The position numbers and the translations under genes are program-made. Shown piece by piece: positions 5,395 to 62,266 of a DNA stretch of 64,000 nucleotides (positions within the stretch are counted from its first letter, which is position 1; every line of letters starts with the position of its first letter). The DNA comes from Nitrospirota bacterium (GTDB lineage Bacteria > Nitrospirota > Thermodesulfovibrionia > Thermodesulfovibrionales > Dissulfurispiraceae), in contig JAJYVD010000003.1 of the NCBI GenBank assembly GCA_021792185.1, positions 62,001 through 126,000 of the forward strand. Direction: 5' to 3'. The notes below the pieces were generated by a model. That model was not told the origin of the DNA. It saw nothing but the letters and a program-made list of their open reading frames with translations, and searched no databases.

Positions 5395-6870
5395 ATGACT
5401 AAAAAACAGCTTGAAGATTATCTCTGGGGAGCGGCCAACATTCTGAGAGGAATGATTGATGCTGCCGACTTTAAGCAATACATTTTTCCGCTATTGTTTT
5501 TCAAACGCATCTCTGATGTTTGGGAAGAAGAATATCAACAGGCATTGGAAGAAAGCGGCGGTGATTTGAACTATGCTGAGTTTAGCGAGCAGCATCGTTT
5601 TCAAATTCCGAAAGGATGCCGTTGGAAAGATGTCAGAAAAAAACCAGTTGATGTAGGTAAGGCGCTGCAAAATGCCTTGCGAAAAATTGAGAACGCCAAT
5701 TTCGATTTGTTCCATGACATATTTGGTGATGCACAATGGACAAACAAGAAACGGTTAAGTGATGAAAAACTGCTTGACCTGATTGAGCATTTTTCGCAGA
5801 TGAATTTGAGTGTGAAGAATGTCCCTCACGATATTATGGGTGAGGGTTACGAATACCTCATTAAAAAATTTGCTGACGACAGTGGACACACCGCTGCCGA
5901 GTTTTACACCAACCGCACCGTGGTAAAACTGATGACCATGATTACCGACCCACAGCCGGGCGAGAGCGTGTATGACCCTACATGCGGAAGCGGAGGAATT
6001 TTATTGAACAGCGCTTTGCACCTGAAAGAACAAAAGAAAGAATACAGAACTCTGAAACTTTACGGACAGGAACTGAATCTCATCACCTCTGCCATTGCAC
6101 GCATGAATATGTTCATGCATAACGTGGATGTATTTGAGATTTGGCAAGGTGACACCTTGGACAACCCGCAGCTTCTGGAAGATGATGAATTGCGGAAATT
6201 CGATGTGATAATGGCAAACCCGCCCTACAGCGTGAAGCGGTGGAATCAGAGCAAATTTATGAACGACCCCTTTGGCAGAAATATTTGGGGAACACCGCCT
6301 CAAGGCTGCGCAGACTACGCTTTTCAGCAGCACATCATTAAGAGTTTAAAACCGGATACCGGAAGATGTGTGGTGCTGTGGCCGCACGGTGTTTTATTTC
6401 GTGATGCTGAAAGCGACATACGAAAGAAAATGATTGAGGAAGATAAAGTTGATGCTGTAATCGGTTTAGGCAAAAACCTTTTCTACAATAGCAGCATGGA
6501 AAGCTGTTTGCTCGTCTGCCGCATGAGAAAACCGAAAGACAGAAAAGGGAAAATCATTTTTATTAATGCGGTGAATGAAATAAAATTAGAAAGAGCTTTT
6601 GCTTGGCTTGAACAAAGTAACATCAAGCGAATTATTTCATCCTATCGTTCATTCAAAGAAGAAGATGGATTTTCAAAAGTTGTAACGATAAAAGAGGTTC
6701 TTGAGAATGCTGGTAATCTTAGCATCCCTCTTTATGTCAAAATTACAAATGAATCTCAGCAGGAATCAATGAAAGTAATATTAAAAGAACTCAAAAAATC
6801 TCATCAATCTATAAATGATTCTATGGAAAAATTATTCAACAAACTCCGAGAAGTAGGAATTGAAAAATGA
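5395..6870 (+). CDS. hsdM: Type I restriction-modification methyltransferase subunit M
   Basis: N6-adenine methyltransferase subunit of a type I R-M complex (M2S modifies, R2M2S restricts). The N-terminal HsdM helical domain covers about residues 1-140. AdoMet-binding motif I is DPTCGSGG near residue 192 and catalytic motif IV is NPPY near residue 275. Length 491 is normal. It heads a tightly packed hsdM-hsdS-hsdR operon with ATGA overlaps. Base composition and codon use are clearly more AT-rich than gyrA, consistent with horizontal acquisition of the block. Confidence 0.95.
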   Translation: MTKKQLEDYLWGAANILRGMIDAADFKQYIFPLLFFKRISDVWEEEYQQALEESGGDLNYAEFSEQHRFQIPKGCRWKDVRKKPVDVGKALQNALRKIENANFDLFHDIFGDAQWTNKKRLSDEKLLDLIEHFSQMNLSVKNVPHDIMGEGYEYLIKKFADDSGHTAAEFYTNRTVVKLMTMITDPQPGESVYDPTCGSGGILLNSALHLKEQKKEYRTLKLYGQELNLITSAIARMNMFMHNVDVFEIWQGDTLDNPQLLEDDELRKFDVIMANPPYSVKRWNQSKFMNDPFGRNIWGTPPQGCADYAFQQHIIKSLKPDTGRCVVLWPHGVLFRDAESDIRKKMIEEDKVDAVIGLGKNLFYNSSMESCLLVCRMRKPKDRKGKIIFINAVNEIKLERAFAWLEQSNIKRIISSYRSFKEEDGFSKVVTIKEVLENAGNLSIPLYVKITNESQQESMKVILKELKKSHQSINDSMEKLFNKLREVGIEK

Positions 6871-30012: not shown

Positions 30013-31036
30013 AGCAATCGCGTTATATTCAGGAGGCCTCGACAGCACCCTTGCCATATTGGTAGCCATGAGGCAGGGGATAGAGGTTACAGCTATAACT
30101 TTTCTCAACCACTTCGGATGCGATATATCAGACAAATCCTCATGCTCGAAGGATCCGTTTTCAGCAGCGCAGAAATTCGGATTCGAGGTAAAGCTCTGCC
30201 ATCTTGCGGATAAGTTCATGGATATCGTGAAAAACCCGAAGTTCGGACACGGGAAGAACATGAACCCCTGCATAGATTGCAGGATATTGATGCTGAGAGA
30301 AGCCGCGGAACTAATGAAAATGCGCGGCGCGGACTTTATCATAACAGGCGAGGTTCTTGGGCAAAGGCCGATGAGCCAGAGAAGAGACACATTCCCGAAA
30401 ATAGACAGGGAAGCAGGGTTGAAGGGTTATGTTCTCAGGCCTTTGAGCGCGAGGCTTTTAAAGCCTACTATTGCGGAAGAATCCGGGCTTGTTGACAGGG
30501 AACAACTTTGCGGTTTTCACGGCAGGTCAAGGAAGCCACAGATGGCTTTGGCAAACGAATTCGGCTTGACCGAATACCCTGCCCCGGCAGGTGGATGCCT
30601 TTTAACCGACCCGATATTTTCTTATCGCCTGAAGGAATTGCTTAAGCATAACCCCGACCCTTCAATAAAAGACATAAGCCTTTTAAGGCTCGGCAGGCAT
30701 TTCAGGATTTCTGAAAATATGAAGGTCATCGTAGGAAGGAATGAACGGGAAAATAATGTCATAGAAGGATTAGCGGAAAAAACCGACCATCTCTTTTGGG
30801 TTGAAGGATACGGCAGCCCGCTGACGATTATCTGCGGCAACGCGACAGAAGACGATATAAATCTTGCGGCATCGATATGCGCGCGTTATTCGGACGCTAA
30901 AAAACTGCCGGAGGTTGATGTAACAGTATCGGCTAATGGGGTTAAATATACGATTAAAACACCGTCCGCCGATAATGCGGTTTTGAATGAACATATGGTG
31001 CAGCCGGAGAAAAAATTAAAAACCGCCTCCATATAA
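30005..31036 (+). CDS. PP-loop (ThiI/MnmA-like) protein with NFACT-R/DUF814 C-terminal domain
   Basis: 343 residues. The N-terminal ATP-pyrophosphatase loop is LYSGGLDSTLA (residues 7-17), with CIDCR near 91-95 and CGF near 165 as possible sulfur-relay cysteines; GGCLLTDPIFSYRLKEL marks the second part. The C-terminal 100 residues look like DUF814. Such proteins are often annotated as tRNA 2-thiouridylase-like; a tRNA or sulfur-transfer role is likely but the substrate is not established. Overlaps the heptose kinase gene by 8 bases. Confidence 0.8.
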   Translation: MPKAIALYSGGLDSTLAILVAMRQGIEVTAITFLNHFGCDISDKSSCSKDPFSAAQKFGFEVKLCHLADKFMDIVKNPKFGHGKNMNPCIDCRILMLREAAELMKMRGADFIITGEVLGQRPMSQRRDTFPKIDREAGLKGYVLRPLSARLLKPTIAEESGLVDREQLCGFHGRSRKPQMALANEFGLTEYPAPAGGCLLTDPIFSYRLKELLKHNPDPSIKDISLLRLGRHFRISENMKVIVGRNERENNVIEGLAEKTDHLFWVEGYGSPLTIICGNATEDDINLAASICARYSDAKKLPEVDVTVSANGVKYTIKTPSADNAVLNEHMVQPEKKLKTASI

Positions 31037-31050
31037 GCTATAATATAGAC

Positions 31051-31242
31051 ATGCATAAAAAATCTTTACTCCAGACAAACCCTTATCTGAAAAATCCGGA
31101 AAAGCGCAGGGAAATAATCGAGACTGTTGTGCGCTCTTCTTCATCAATTGAAGGAGTTCATATTGCTGTCGAGGAGGCGCTTTCTAAAACACGCGCCGCT
31201 ATTTCCCAAGCGTCCGTCTCGTTCTCAAAAGAACGGCGCTGA
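31051..31242 (+). CDS. Small Fic-inhibitor-like protein (candidate antitoxin)
   Basis: 63 residues, start ATG 31051 preceded at 6 bases by TATAAT and no ribosome site. Residues 30-35 read SSSIEG, matching the (S/T)xxxE(G/N) motif by which Fic antitoxins block the ATP site of Fic enzymes. The N-terminal part (KSLLQTNPYLKNPEKRREIIETVVRSSSSIEG) looks like a family of short proteins; the last 20 residues are encoded inside the 3' end of the convergent Fic gene and may be accidental. Its job as inhibitor of that Fic protein is inference from motif and position. Confidence 0.6.
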   Translation: MHKKSLLQTNPYLKNPEKRREIIETVVRSSSSIEGVHIAVEEALSKTRAAISQASVSFSKERR

Positions 31243-31849
31243 AAACCTTTTTCATCGGCTCATAATCCTGACTTGCACTCGCTTGAACAGCAGCAAAATA
31301 TGCCTTTCTCATCTTGCCGCTAATCCCTGCAAAGTCGAGGCCGGGCAGCCCTGCCTGTAATGCCATTAAAACAGTAAGCAATCTCCCGACCCTCCCATTC
31401 CCTTCTCTGAAAGGATGAATCAGCATCAATTCACCGTGGACTACAGACAGCGCTGTTATTAAATCATCATCCTTAGCGAACAAGCAGGGCGTATACTTCC
31501 GCAATAGTCCTTTCTCAAATTCCTGCATCATCTTCGGTAGTTGGGCTGCCGCAGCAAAAGGGAAACCGTCTTTTGTAATGTTTACTTGCCGATAGCGGCC
31601 GGCCCATTCGTATACATCGCCGAGCCATGTCTTATGCATCCGGCAAATGTCATTTGCAGTAAAACAGTGGGTCTTTGAGAACATATCCATGAGAACAGGT
31701 ATTGCAAGTGCATACTTCTCTACTTCGACAACATCCAGCTCGCGTCTGCGTGTGATATGCAGAAGATTTTTCAGCACCCTTCCCCGTGAGCCGGGCTCGA
31801 ACTGGTCTTCAACCAAATGCGACGTTTTATAGCGTTGAGATTTTTTCAT
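31199..31849 (-). CDS. Fic/DOC family protein
   Basis: 216 residues from ATG 31849 (MKKSQRYKTSHLVEDQFEPGS), chosen over the GTG at 31885 because AGGAAG lies just upstream. The catalytic motif HPFREGNGRVGR is near residues 141-152 and the flap region is YRQVNITKDGFPFAAAAQLP. No inhibitory (S/T)xxxE(G/N) helix is visible inside it, so it should need a separate inhibitor (class I-like). The convergent small gene, overlapping its 3' end by 44 bases, carries exactly such a motif. Confidence 0.85.
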   Translation of the reverse strand: MKKSQRYKTSHLVEDQFEPGSRGRVLKNLLHITRRRELDVVEVEKYALAIPVLMDMFSKTHCFTANDICRMHKTWLGDVYEWAGRYRQVNITKDGFPFAAAAQLPKMMQEFEKGLLRKYTPCLFAKDDDLITALSVVHGELMLIHPFREGNGRVGRLLTVLMALQAGLPGLDFAGISGKMRKAYFAAVQASASQDYEPMKKVFSAVLLRTRRTLGK

Positions 31850-31971
31850 TCTTCCTACTCTCTGTGCAATGGGTAGTGTATCCACCCTTTTTTATTATTC
31901 ACATATTACCACAAAACATTGGATGCTGTGATTGATTTGCAGAGTTTTTTTCTTCTCAAATATTGCGTGAT

Positions 31972-31990
31972 ATGATAATATTTTTATCAT
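31972..31990. promoter_or_regulatory. Dyad ATGATAA-N5-TTATCAT
   Basis: Perfect 7+7 inverted repeat in the 200-base gap between the Fic gene and the HEPN-like gene. It could be an operator for either divergent gene. Nothing else was recognised in 31850-32046. Confidence 0.35.
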
Positions 31991-32046
31991 GGGGGGAGAA
32001 AATATCAAGGTGGTTATTAATAATTGTTAACCGGTAATACATGATT

Positions 32047-32826
32047 ATGAAAGACACATACGATATACGAACAATAATGCTTCAGGTCATTCACGATCAG
32101 CAGCCAAAAGGGCCAACAGACAGACAATTGCAACAAGGCTCTGTCCTTGAAGAAACCAAACGCCGATTAGGCGTAACTTATGACCTCACGAAAGAACAGG
32201 CTATTCTCACGACTTGGCATGATCTTTTTAGAACTGGTTACTTAGCATGGGGGTTAAATATCACAAATCCTAATTCTCCTTTTTTTCATGTGTCAGAGAG
32301 CGGCAGACGTGCTCTTGCATCGTTAAGCCGCGATCCGGGTAACCCCGCTGGCTATTTGCGCCATTTAGCAGCCATCGCGACACTTAATCCCATTGGGTAT
32401 TCCTATTTGAAAGAGGGGCTTGAGTGCTATATGGCTGGGCTTTATAAAGCTGCCGCGGTCATGGTTGGAGGGGCTACAGAAAATATCATTCTTGAACTCC
32501 GCGACGTTACGGTTCAGAAATTAATTTCGCTTGGCAAGCCGATACCAAAAAAAATGAATGATTGGAAAATCAAAACTGTATCAGACACCTTGTACAATTT
32601 CCTTGATGGCTATAAATCGCAGTTTGTACCTGAACTACGTGATGAGTTTGAAGCTTATTGGACAGCATTCGCACAACAGATTAGGGCCGTAAGAAATGAT
32701 GCTGGGCATCCAACAAGCGTTGATCCTGTTACGCCCGACACTGTCTATGCATCTCTACTTATCTTTCCTGAACTTGCAAAGCTGGCGGATAAATTAAGAA
32801 CCTGGGTTACCAATGATTTTATATAA
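32047..32826 (+). CDS. Hypothetical protein, winged-helix plus HEPN-like domain
   Basis: 259 residues from ATG 32047 (32041 is also possible). The N-terminal 90 residues look like a winged helix ending in FFHVSESGRRAL. The C-terminal half is all-helical with YMAGLYKAAAVMVGGATENIIL and an R-x4-H motif, RNDAGH near residue 215, as in HEPN RNases and DUF4145-like proteins. I do not recognise a named family. It stands in an accessory block with Fic and HepT/MntA, so a defence or stress role is possible. Confidence 0.55.
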   Translation: MKDTYDIRTIMLQVIHDQQPKGPTDRQLQQGSVLEETKRRLGVTYDLTKEQAILTTWHDLFRTGYLAWGLNITNPNSPFFHVSESGRRALASLSRDPGNPAGYLRHLAAIATLNPIGYSYLKEGLECYMAGLYKAAAVMVGGATENIILELRDVTVQKLISLGKPIPKKMNDWKIKTVSDTLYNFLDGYKSQFVPELRDEFEAYWTAFAQQIRAVRNDAGHPTSVDPVTPDTVYASLLIFPELAKLADKLRTWVTNDFI

Positions 32827-32935: not shown

Positions 32936-33574
32936 ATGATTGACAATAATGCGATCACCATATATCTGGCAAAAATGGAAGAGGTAAAGCGTCGTTTAGC
33001 CTTCTCCGAGCAACAGCTCTTCGATTACGGTAAAACTAAAAACCTGCATTATTTGGAAAACTCGATCCTACATCTCCGTAAAGTACTGGAAAGCATAGCT
33101 TACGCTTCAATCGCGCCAAATAAAAAGGCATATTCCGAACTTAGGGCGCGTTCAGATAAGCCAGTCGATTTCAGAAAGGACTATAATGGGCGCAAGATTC
33201 TTGAACAATTAGCAATGATCAATAAAGATTTTTATCCAATTCCTTTGGAAAAACCCAGTCAAGTCAGTCCAAATCAGTGGCATTTTGAAAGAAAGAAAAA
33301 GGATTTTTTAACAAAGAAACGTTTTGAGCGCGTCTATGATCGTCTCGGTAAATACTTGCACTCTGACAATCCATGGGATAATGATAAAGGATATCTAAAT
33401 TTGGCTAAAGAATTACCAGCTATCTACAACGAGATCAGGACCTTGCTGTCTTTGCACTTTACAGTAATTCGAGATGGAGGGTTTGGTGGGATTTGGGTCA
33501 TAGAGTTTGGCAGTAACAGCTCTCCATCTCGTGTAATTACTGCAATAGCAAAGGATGAATTTGTTGTAATCTAA
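32936..33574 (+). CDS. Hypothetical protein, helical, HEPN-like in part
   Basis: 212 residues, not recognised. Residues 15-60 are a predicted helical hairpin (FSEQQLFDYGKTKNLHYLENSILHLRKVLESIAYAS); YDRLGKYLHSDNPWDNDKGY near 140-160 recalls the conserved C-terminal part of HEPN-like or abortive-infection proteins. The last 40 residues look like beta strands. It lies 109 bases after the previous HEPN-like gene on the same strand; the pair may form one accessory unit. Confidence 0.5.
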   Translation: MIDNNAITIYLAKMEEVKRRLAFSEQQLFDYGKTKNLHYLENSILHLRKVLESIAYASIAPNKKAYSELRARSDKPVDFRKDYNGRKILEQLAMINKDFYPIPLEKPSQVSPNQWHFERKKKDFLTKKRFERVYDRLGKYLHSDNPWDNDKGYLNLAKELPAIYNEIRTLLSLHFTVIRDGGFGGIWVIEFGSNSSPSRVITAIAKDEFVVI

Positions 33575-33858: not shown

Positions 33859-34287
33859 TTATTGCAGTCCTTCCATAAAAGACAGTATTTCCCTTGCGAA
33901 CTCTTTAAAAATAGCGGGCGATTTTTTATAGTTCCGGTGCACCTCATTTATATCTATGCCGAGGTATTCATGAACAAGAATATTTCTGAAGCCCCCGAAC
34001 CCTTCAATTTTTTCAAAAAGATTTTTTGATATTACCCCCTTTTCTCGCAGGAGATGCAGGGAGTCCTCATATGTTTCAGGGTATACATGAAATCTTGATG
34101 CAAGTATATGGTCGGCTATGTCAAAGACTATATTTGCGGCAGCTATAAGCCCCCTTTCAATAACCCAGCGCTTAGAAAGGGAAGCATCCAAATCTTCCTG
34201 TGTAATCTCCTTATACAGCGACAGTTCTTCTGTTACTGTGTCCAGCTCTTTGAGCCTTTCCTGTATGATTTCAGGTTTAAAGACCAA
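33859..34287 (-). CDS. hepT: HepT-like HEPN toxin (DUF86)
   Basis: 142 residues, all-helical, with the HEPN RNase motif RX4HXY as RNILVHEY (Arg101, His106, Tyr108). In HepT/MntA pairs the HEPN toxin is silenced by AMPylation of the Tyr by MntA. The TTG start overlaps the mntA 3' end by 11 bases, so the two are coupled. All motif residues are present, so the toxin looks active. Confidence 0.88.
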   Translation of the reverse strand: MVFKPEIIQERLKELDTVTEELSLYKEITQEDLDASLSKRWVIERGLIAAANIVFDIADHILASRFHVYPETYEDSLHLLREKGVISKNLFEKIEGFGGFRNILVHEYLGIDINEVHRNYKKSPAIFKEFAREILSFMEGLQ

Positions 34288-34699
34288 CGCCGAGATTCTC
34301 CTTTAGGAGTTTTAATTGCCTGCTTTTTACAGGGCGTAAATCCTGATACTGTTTTATCACGCTCAATTCAAAAAGATTTTCGCTCTCTGTATTTATTTTG
34401 TAAATGAGCTTTCCTGATTGAAGAACCTCAAATGCGGTTGAGACCGGCGCTTCTTTAAGATTTACGATGTCGAGTCTCCATGTCCCGAGCTTTTTCTGCA
34501 TCTCTTCCCTTAGAACCGGGAAGTCCCCATCGTACAGGAGCGCAATATCGACATCTTCACCTTTTTTATTCAATAAAGAGCCGAAAAGATAGGCAAGGGT
34601 TACATTTTTCTCTTTAAAAATAGTGTTGAGCCCATGTATTCTTTCAAGAATGTCATCGGGTAATGGGCGATGCCTGCTCCATCTTTGCTTTATTCCCAT
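34277..34699 (-). CDS. mntA: MntA-like nucleotidyltransferase antitoxin with a shortened active-site loop
   Basis: 140 residues. The nucleotidyltransferase signature is FGSLLNKKGEDVDIALL: Gly40-Ser41 and Asp49/Asp51. Only 7 residues separate GS from DxD instead of the usual 10, while the other MNT protein in this window (4902-5222) has the normal 10. A third acidic residue on the next strand may be Asp75 (WRLDIVNL). It precedes hepT in the usual order. A TATACT box lies 6 bases before the ATG and there is no ribosome site, suggesting a leaderless message. Confidence 0.82.
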   Translation of the reverse strand: MGIKQRWSRHRPLPDDILERIHGLNTIFKEKNVTLAYLFGSLLNKKGEDVDIALLYDGDFPVLREEMQKKLGTWRLDIVNLKEAPVSTAFEVLQSGKLIYKINTESENLFELSVIKQYQDLRPVKSRQLKLLKENLGVGL

Positions 34700-60640: not shown

Positions 60641-62266
60641 ATGATCACATTGGAAAAAATCAAAAGTCTGACCATTAAATGGAAACTTATGATTCCGGTC
60701 ATCGTCATTATGGTCACCATCGGTATTGCCAACAGCACATGGATGGGGATGAAGGTAAAGGAACTTTCTATCGAAAAAAGCAAGGAAGACCTGACCCGCA
60801 TGTCAGAAACCGTATTCGGCGTAATGACAGGATATATGAACACAGGCATGCTCGCAAATAACAAAAAGCCCTTCCTCGAACATATGAATAAAATGCTCCC
60901 TGTAAGAATGATATGGGGCGAGTTGCTGGACAAGCAATACGGCAAAAAGCCTGCTGATGAATACCCGAAGGACGAATTGGAAAAAGAGGTGTTTAAAACC
61001 GGAAAACCTGCATTTAAGCTCGAAAAGGTCAAAGGCGAGACCTACTTAACTGGAGTATTTCCTTACGTAAACGTTAAAGATTACATGGGAACAAACTGCC
61101 TTAATTGCCACTCCGAAGGCGTAAAAGAAGGCGACGTCATCGGCGCCATACGCATGAGCGATTCCATTAAAAAGACGGAAGCCGCTGTGGCCAGAACAGT
61201 AATCCTTATAGCGGTCATTACTGTTTTGCTTTCTATAGCGAGCATCGCCTTAATATATTTCGTTCTCGGAATATCTCTAAGCAAACCTCTGAACAATGTG
61301 ATAGCTGTTATTGAAAGTGCGGCCGGCAAGGATTTCAGGAAGAGATTGGAGATAAAAGTCCGCGACGATATCGGAAAGCTCTCGGAGTCCATAAACAAGA
61401 TGTCCGGCGAACTTGCAAATGCCATGAAAAACGTTGCGAAAGCCGCAACCGATCTATCGAGCAGCGCCGGAGTGCTTAAAACCGCGGTTGGAGAGACGGT
61501 AGACGGCACTAACAAGCAGGCCCAGCAGGCTGCCCAGATTGCTGCCGCAGCCGAGGAGATGTCCCAGACTGTAACCGAGATCGCAAAAAACAGTTCCTCG
61601 GCTTCGGATTCCGCTCGCGATGCCATAAATGTGGCTAACAAAGGAAGGGACGTTGTCGGCCAATCCGTCGATAAGATAAACTCCGCAGGCAATGCGACTC
61701 AGGAACTGGCGTCCATGATAGAAAGGCTTAATTCACGGGTAACCGAGATAGGAGAAATAGTTTCCGTAATCAGCGACATAGCCGACCAGACAAACCTCCT
61801 TGCGCTGAATGCGGCTATCGAGGCTGCAAGGGCCGGCGAACAGGGGCGTGGTTTTGCCGTAGTCGCCGATGAGGTGAGAAAGCTTGCCGAACGCACCATG
61901 AAAGCCACTACCGAAATCTCAGACAAAATAAGGGCTGTGCAGGACGATTCGGGGCAGACGGCGCATTCGATGGAAAAGGCGCTTACCCATGTAACGGACG
62001 GCGTTTCCTTTATGGAAACGGCCAAGCAATCCCTCGGCAGCATCGTAAGCTCCGTTCAGAAAACGGCTGATGAAATATCCCAGATAGCGGCTTCGGTCGA
62101 GCAGCAATCGGCCGCATCCGAAGAGATAGCTAAAAATATCGAAGATATATCCCTTATTGCCAAAAAGACTCAGGAATCAACCGAAAATCTGAAAAAGATA
62201 TTCGAAGGGCTTAACAGCCTTTCGGTGAGGCTCAAGAGCACGGTAGACGAATTTAAGTTCGAATAA
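60641..62266 (+). CDS. Methyl-accepting chemotaxis protein with haem c-type sensor motif
   Basis: 541 residues from ATG 60641. A membrane helix (about 12-32), a periplasmic sensor resembling DUF3365/Tll0287-like domains with a CLNCH haem-binding motif (Cys153, Cys156, His157), a second helix (about 185-210), HAMP (about 212-265) and the cytoplasmic signalling domain with hairpin tip [27 protein letters not shown]. Suggests redox, oxygen or NO sensing by a covalently bound haem. TATAAT near 60604 and a G-rich ribosome site. Converges with cysC, overlapping it by 14 bases. Confidence 0.92.

Follow-up and report, generated by a model that had tools for sequence, protein, structure and literature searches.

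A convergently encoded Fic protein and small inhibitory-motif protein in Nitrospirota: a probable toxin-antitoxin module with a predicted leaderless antitoxin mRNA

In a 64-kb stretch of DNA from a Nitrospirota bacterium (positions 62,001 to 126,000 of contig JAJYVD010000003.1, assembly GCA_021792185.1, a genome whose 89 contigs total 2.65 Mb), a Fic gene lies tail to tail with a small gene whose product carries a Fic inhibitory motif. This locus raises the question of whether the small protein is the antitoxin of the Fic protein, supplied in trans from the opposite strand. An original prediction, made from the letters of this stretch (hereafter the window) alone, had proposed such a pair, and both open reading frames (ORFs) were recovered where it placed them. 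The small gene occupies 31051..31242 on the forward strand and encodes 63 amino acids (aa), while the Fic gene occupies 31199..31849 on the reverse strand and encodes 216 aa counted from its ATG, with an upstream GTG start that would add 12 codons. As had been claimed, their 3' ends overlap by 44 bases that include both stop codons (31199..31242, both strands). Because a convergent small gene faces every intact Fic gene that could be judged in the phylum, the motifs are invariant, the fold is that of known Fic toxins, the two proteins diverge in a correlated fashion, the Fic gene is lost one-sidedly and a biochemically tested precedent exists, we consider it very probable from these comparisons that the pair is a class I Fic toxin-antitoxin (TA) module of the convergent FicY-AntY type.

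The two proteins and the conservation of their pairing

The Fic protein matches the Pfam Fic family (E 1.8e-18) and carries the canonical HPFx(D/E)GN(G/K)RxxR active-site motif as HPFREGNGRVGR (H145 to R156; 31382..31417 on the reverse strand), in which H145, P146, R148, N151, G152, R153 and R156 are invariant among 32 aligned Fic proteins. Its structural model, built from 27 sequences with a predicted local distance difference test (pLDDT) score of 86.3, has its last helix at residues 197-214. The closest folds in the PDB are 3zcb and 3shg, which hold VbhT with VbhA (Z 21.7), followed by 5jff, the EcFicT-EcFicA complex (Z 21.4), and comparison with 8wt0, the Fic-1-AntF complex, gives a Z of 19.5. 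The claim that this Fic protein lacks an inhibitory helix of its own was borne out, as the (S/T)xxxE(G/N) motif is absent from the protein (the same ORF was read in loci L004 and L006) and residues 1-15 of the model fall below pLDDT 50. An S-x-x-x-E found within its N-terminal YxTSxLxE segment was considered as an intramolecular inhibitor and rejected, since in most members the residue after the E is D, A or S and the segment lies in the region below pLDDT 50; exceptions are SQLIEN in L012 and SELIEG in L015. The same genome encodes four other Fic genes (L001, L002, L003 and L005), all of the class II type with N-terminal inhibitory motifs of their own (SNAIEG, SNAIEG, STAIEG and SSRIEG), and one of these, L003, is located on the same contig ~20 kb from the convergent pair.

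The SSSIEG sequence predicted for the facing gene is present as S30-S-S-I-E34-G35 (31138..31155, forward strand), where it closes a predicted helix at residues 16-34 in a model built from 42 sequences (m9682ca243f03; pLDDT 73.7). An alignment of 47 sequences shows no variation at either S30 or E34. Pfam and NCBIfam offer no convincing family for the 42 members of this group, and assignment to a known family was rejected as the matches, all weak, were taken as chance. The VbhA name is in use for an antitoxin family that has its own model, and that model was not found among the matches of these members at E up to 0.1. The PADLOC models likewise gave no match to the small protein. At the level of individual proteins, P0001 had no match in plasmids at E up to 1, and the protein of L094 gave one weak archaeal match as well as a repeated weak match to 8ga6_A (THR6; E 0.018) that was taken as chance. 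A second small antitoxin gene, of an IET type, is present in the same genome (L075; contig C48 of G000, 5591-5722 on the reverse strand) with no Fic gene found beside it.

To describe how this pair is distributed we surveyed 295 genomes of Nitrospirota, accepting the small protein at E up to 0.1 and the Fic protein at E up to 1e-20. The small protein was reported in 58 of the genomes, nine of them doubtful, and a Fic protein of this subfamily had a patchy presence in 36. Sixty-five places with the small gene were listed, of which 56 were fetched and 54, in 49 genomes, were kept. Of the nine unfetched places, seven lie in frames longer than 500 aa and two, G068 and G008, are weak; the two dropped places are L096, which gave no match on re-scanning, and L097, which lies inside a 735-aa frame. 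Homologues at the 54 places keep an MxKKSLxETNPYLKDP-like start and an SxAIEG-like motif.

Both the pairing and the convergent, overlapping order that the original prediction described for the window are conserved in the phylum, an outcome by which that prediction had proposed to be judged. A convergent small gene faces all 26 Fic genes that are intact (nearly full-length, uninterrupted matches) and judgeable, a set that includes L065 (G274), where masking hides the Fic start and the locus stops partway through the small gene. Places left unjudged are L029, at a contig end, and L070 (G293), a 27th near-intact Fic gene at the edge of a locus that ends with it and thus left out of the pairing count. 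The L070 protein has a degenerate motif, HPFRRGNARTGR, and is possibly not an adenosine monophosphate (AMP) transferase. Throughout the 54 places, Fic sequence that adjoins a small gene always faces it; the additional Fic pieces of L084 and L085 belong to another nearby Fic gene. The two proteins also diverge together, with a correlation of r 0.80 over 32 pairs and 0.71 over the 27 pairs of the phylum, values that none of 5000 permutations reached.

The association is asymmetric in that every intact judgeable Fic gene has its small gene while the small gene often stands without an intact Fic gene. An intact Fic gene is present at 25 of the 54 places and missing from 29 or, when L029 is set aside, from 28 of 53 judgeable ones. 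Fic pieces remain at 21 of these 29 places and none was found within the locus at the other eight. Among the 21, the 3' end of the Fic gene, which is the part shared with the small gene, is kept in 17 (including L029) and the 5' end in eight. Some of the frameshifts could be assembly errors; missing internal segments are nonetheless frequent.

Known Fic systems and alternative explanations

The convergent order was implied to be novel by the original prediction, a claim that does not stand. FicY-AntY of Yersinia pseudotuberculosis is a class I Fic protein and type II TA system with convergent genes and the antitoxin downstream, and AntY fully blocked FicY modification of ParE at a 1:3 molar ratio in vitro (PMC7479194). 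The modification reported for FicY is AMPylation of ParE. This study is the only description of a convergent Fic antitoxin met in a literature search of limited depth. The mechanism assigned to the window pair is therefore not a new one, and its gene order, though less usual, has a tested precedent. What is added here is how widely the pair occurs in Nitrospirota and how regular its overlap is, together with its one-sided decay and a predicted leaderless antitoxin. The two systems share a small antitoxin gene that is downstream and convergent and an (S/T)xxxE motif in a separate protein, and in the plasmid relatives P0004 and P0005 the motif is S22TAIET27, with the numbering reported for AntY. 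They differ in that the window antitoxin has IEG instead of IET as well as a conserved TNPYLxDP-type N-terminus, and in that the window pair has a 44-nt overlap, against 4 nt or none in the plasmid relatives, and a promoter placed for a predicted leaderless mRNA.

Relatives outside of the phylum, on plasmids and viral contigs, have the AntY motif. Fic proteins from a plasmid collection are 36-42% identical to the window Fic, and downstream of their genes lies a small, convergent gene with an IETG motif, whose product is listed as a 52-aa hypothetical protein in the three annotated records. Several small proteins of the phylum have the same VASSTAIETG string behind the longer N-terminus and so bridge the two groups, and a midpoint-rooted tree of 32 Fic proteins requires one change to divide the IET from the IEG/IES types. 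Among 74 Fic loci on viral contigs a convergent motif ORF is present in 13, comprising 11 of the 12 best-scoring loci (L137-L148, with L144, which has a broken frame, being without), the partial L161, and L180. The L180 case was set aside as looking like chance, since an inhibitory motif is present in that Fic protein itself. In the true convergent relatives on viral contigs, which are 34-39% identical to the window Fic, the motif reads STAIET or STVIET. Motif ORFs upstream of Fic occur in 26 of the viral-contig loci (two without room downstream), a count made with a loose pattern that includes chance matches. In a Fic tree of 61 rows the 14 upstream-antitoxin rows form one separate branch (support 100/100), so by this phylogeny gene order goes with the Fic subfamily. 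Only that branch of the tree was used, as six self-inhibited rows are very long branches that force two changes in the convergent group; VbhT, EcFicT and Fic-1 themselves are absent from it. The plasmid Fic-AntY-type pair L100 also has matches, all of them chromosomal, in 30 of 5426 E. coli genomes, with at least 80% of the query covered in 24, and in the eight matches listed the small gene carries no annotation beyond hypothetical protein.

VbhT-VbhA, EcFicT-EcFicA and Fic-1-AntF resemble the window pair in the Fic fold (Z 19.5-21.7), in an inhibitory motif acting in trans and in corresponding S/E-to-R contacts. In contrast, vbhA and ecFicA are upstream on the same strand, and antF shares a promoter with fic-1. 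The Fic-1-AntF report describes R146 of Fic-1 as interacting with S24 and E28 of AntF in the crystal structure, and AntF E28 as critical for deAMPylation (PMC13327609). By motif position, S30/E34 and R156 of the window proteins correspond to AntF S24/E28 and Fic-1 R146, R156 being the same arginine by its place at H plus 11 in the motif. By analogy, the Fic protein would transfer AMP to a target protein, possibly GyrB or ParE, and this modification would stop DNA replication or segregation. The 63-aa protein would bind Fic with E34 of its helix set against R156, which would block productive binding of adenosine triphosphate, and it might also turn the Fic complex into a deAMPylase as in Fic-1-AntF. 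Since the genes converge, the antitoxin would not be co-transcribed with the toxin and would instead be transcribed apart from it, from its own predicted promoter, as a messenger RNA (mRNA) starting at the AUG.

Several points weigh against this interpretation. Correlated divergence of the two proteins is partly expected from shared host ancestry. Genomes G253 and G144 contain Fic fragments for which the genome search gave no small gene except for one long-frame match in G144, the flanks of these fragments not having been inspected. Sequence alignment of the small protein to the PDB gave no match at E up to 1, and Foldseek returned no chain comparable with its model. Finally, the proposed link to AntY draws on the motif, the motif position, the gene arrangement and the bridging sequences.

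The pair could alternatively be a reversible AMPylation/deAMPylation switch in which the complex removes AMP and free Fic is the signal state, with no growth-arrest module involved. Such a switch is consistent with the invariance here of the residues that correspond to the Fic-1-AntF contacts (PMC13327609). However, loss of Fic from 28 of the 53 judgeable places with the small gene kept fits the antagonist of a toxin better than the subunit of a needed enzyme, and the patchy occurrence of Fic also speaks against it. We therefore regard a switch as possible but unlikely, and favor a TA module.

A different explanation is that regulation is chiefly by antisense RNA, with the overlapping 3' mRNA ends pairing and being cut such that the small gene is partly an RNA antitoxin. 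What favors this possibility is that an overlap is present in all 26 measured intact pairs (24 from the small-protein search plus L036 and L038) and that 25 of the 26 lengths equal 2 modulo 3, which is the same register. However, the length ranges from 13 to 68 nucleotides (nt), and among five plasmid-collection relatives the overlap is 4 nt in L098, L100, L101 and L102 and nonexistent in L099. For this latter reason the long overlap may be special to Nitrospirota. Overlaps of at least 13 nt are also not rare in this genome, as they occur in 12 of 45 convergent neighbor pairs of ORFs of at least 100 aa, a count inflated by spurious ORFs. A hairpin noted at 31220-31235 within the overlap does exist as a string, but its significance did not hold up. 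Hairpins with a perfect 6-bp stem and a 4-nt loop number 31 in the window. With loops of 3-8 nt allowed, such a stem is found in only one of 26 homologous overlaps (with 10 nt added on each side), namely the window's own, and the site is altered in the nearest relative, L007, whose protein is 86% identical. The hairpin was consequently rejected as a terminator or regulator. Together with the invariance of S30 and E34 at the protein level, these observations leave antisense RNA as a quite improbable chief regulator. The last alternative, that the small ORF is an accidental reading frame and that Fic is lone or self-inhibited, has next to no probability since, even though a loose six-residue motif does arise by chance in small ORFs, it is already contradicted by conservation of start and motif at 54 homologous places that face Fic or its remains where found, and by a Fic protein without an inhibitory motif of its own.

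Predicted promoter of the antitoxin gene

Upstream of the antitoxin gene is a predicted promoter (31016..31044, forward strand) composed of TTAAAA, a 17-nt spacer and TATAAT at 31039-31044, which matches the consensus at 10 of 12 positions and is the best of five sites in 30800-32100, where shuffling gives an expectation of 2.8. A -10 box usually precedes the transcription start by 5-7 nt. Because the TATAAT box ends 6 nt before the ATG, within this usual spacing, the antitoxin mRNA is predicted to be leaderless and to start at the A of the AUG.

The box and its spacing are conserved among the homologues. A TATAAT box with no more than one mismatch ends 4-8 nt before the small-gene start in 44 of 52 homologues (24 of them exact), and a Shine-Dalgarno-like string is present in two; the 52 exclude L092, in which the small gene was found by pattern only, and the window's own copy. 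As a control, 20 other genomes, each sampled over one 20-kb stretch, gave a TATAAT-like box before 9 of 312 ORFs and Shine-Dalgarno-like strings before 112. Fic starts of the phylum have the box in 3 of 27 cases and a Shine-Dalgarno-like string in 7 of 27, and in the window such a string, AGGA, lies at the end of the Fic leader (31850..31859, reverse strand, as read in locus L006). When 45 upstream sequences of 36 nt are aligned on the box, TATGnTATAAT is the standout block. The pattern occurs in 21 of 24 loci with an intact Fic gene and in 24 of 29 without one. As the homologues are related, a Fisher test overstates their independence, and the contrast with unconserved flanks is the better argument.

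A number of observations count against a leaderless antitoxin or against a simple contrast with the toxin. The box rate in the genome's own control, 29 of 239 ORFs from the first start and 27 of 233 from the first ATG, is higher than that in other genomes. Eight of the 52 homologues (L015, L035, L083, L084, L089, L090, L093 and L094) are missing the pattern, and the plasmid relatives L099 and L102 show, by eye, a leader with a Shine-Dalgarno-like string. An exact TATAAT stands 6 nt ahead of the Fic start itself in L033 and L081, where the toxin may therefore be leaderless too, and the Fic gene of L010 has one with a mismatch. The scarcity of Shine-Dalgarno-like strings at Fic starts further weakens the contrast. 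Separately, among the own-genome control ORFs (L104-L116 and the window), TATAAT-like boxes located 5-6 nt ahead of the start codon are slightly in excess, which hints that leaderless expression may extend to further genes of this genome.

A literature search of limited depth found no study of leaderless transcription in Nitrospirota. For M. tuberculosis, one report gives a leaderless start as common among TA gene pairs (32 of 37; PMC3898074), and the Nitrospirota antitoxin would be alike in this respect. The gene pairs described there share a start site, whereas here the pattern belongs to a separately transcribed antitoxin and mostly not to the toxin. We tentatively propose, as an idea more likely to be wrong than right, a two-promoter switch in Nitrospirota. 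In it the antitoxin mRNA would be leaderless and made from an extended -10 promoter that the toxin gene lacks, the toxin gene often being located behind other genes, at some loci restriction-modification genes. Leaderless translation would then govern the supply of antitoxin and neighboring transcription that of toxin, so that a change in ribosome state or in a neighboring operon would shift the balance and release Fic, with the regular 3' overlap adding mutual transcript interference. The regulatory idea offered is a leaderless antitoxin mRNA that is made apart from the toxin.

Genomic context

Matches to the type I restriction families HsdM or HsdS lie within ~5 kb of the Fic gene at 9 of the 26 intact loci (G261, G281, G090, G048, G043, G122, G116, G237 and G274), a raw count from positions compared by eye. 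The Fic protein also matches the PADLOC PDC-S04 model PDLC04839 (E 3.1e-70), whereas the small protein matches no PADLOC model. Counting against a defensive function, one report describes one PDC-S04 system that was assayed with no defence found (PMC12409345). A role in anti-phage defence, suggested by these matches, is a lead only. A small family absent from Pfam and NCBIfam can now be assigned as the likely antitoxin of a PADLOC defence-candidate Fic subfamily, which allows annotators to pair both.

A second TA pair of type VII, composed of a HepT ribonuclease and an MntA adenylyltransferase, is present in the window 2 kb from the Fic pair (33859-34699, reverse strand). Between the two pairs are two forward-strand genes, at 32041-32826 and 32936-33574, whose proteins have no family assignment and match no PADLOC model, the first having a weak DUF4145 match only. 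The MntA match of the HepT/MntA pair is just below the curated cut-off.
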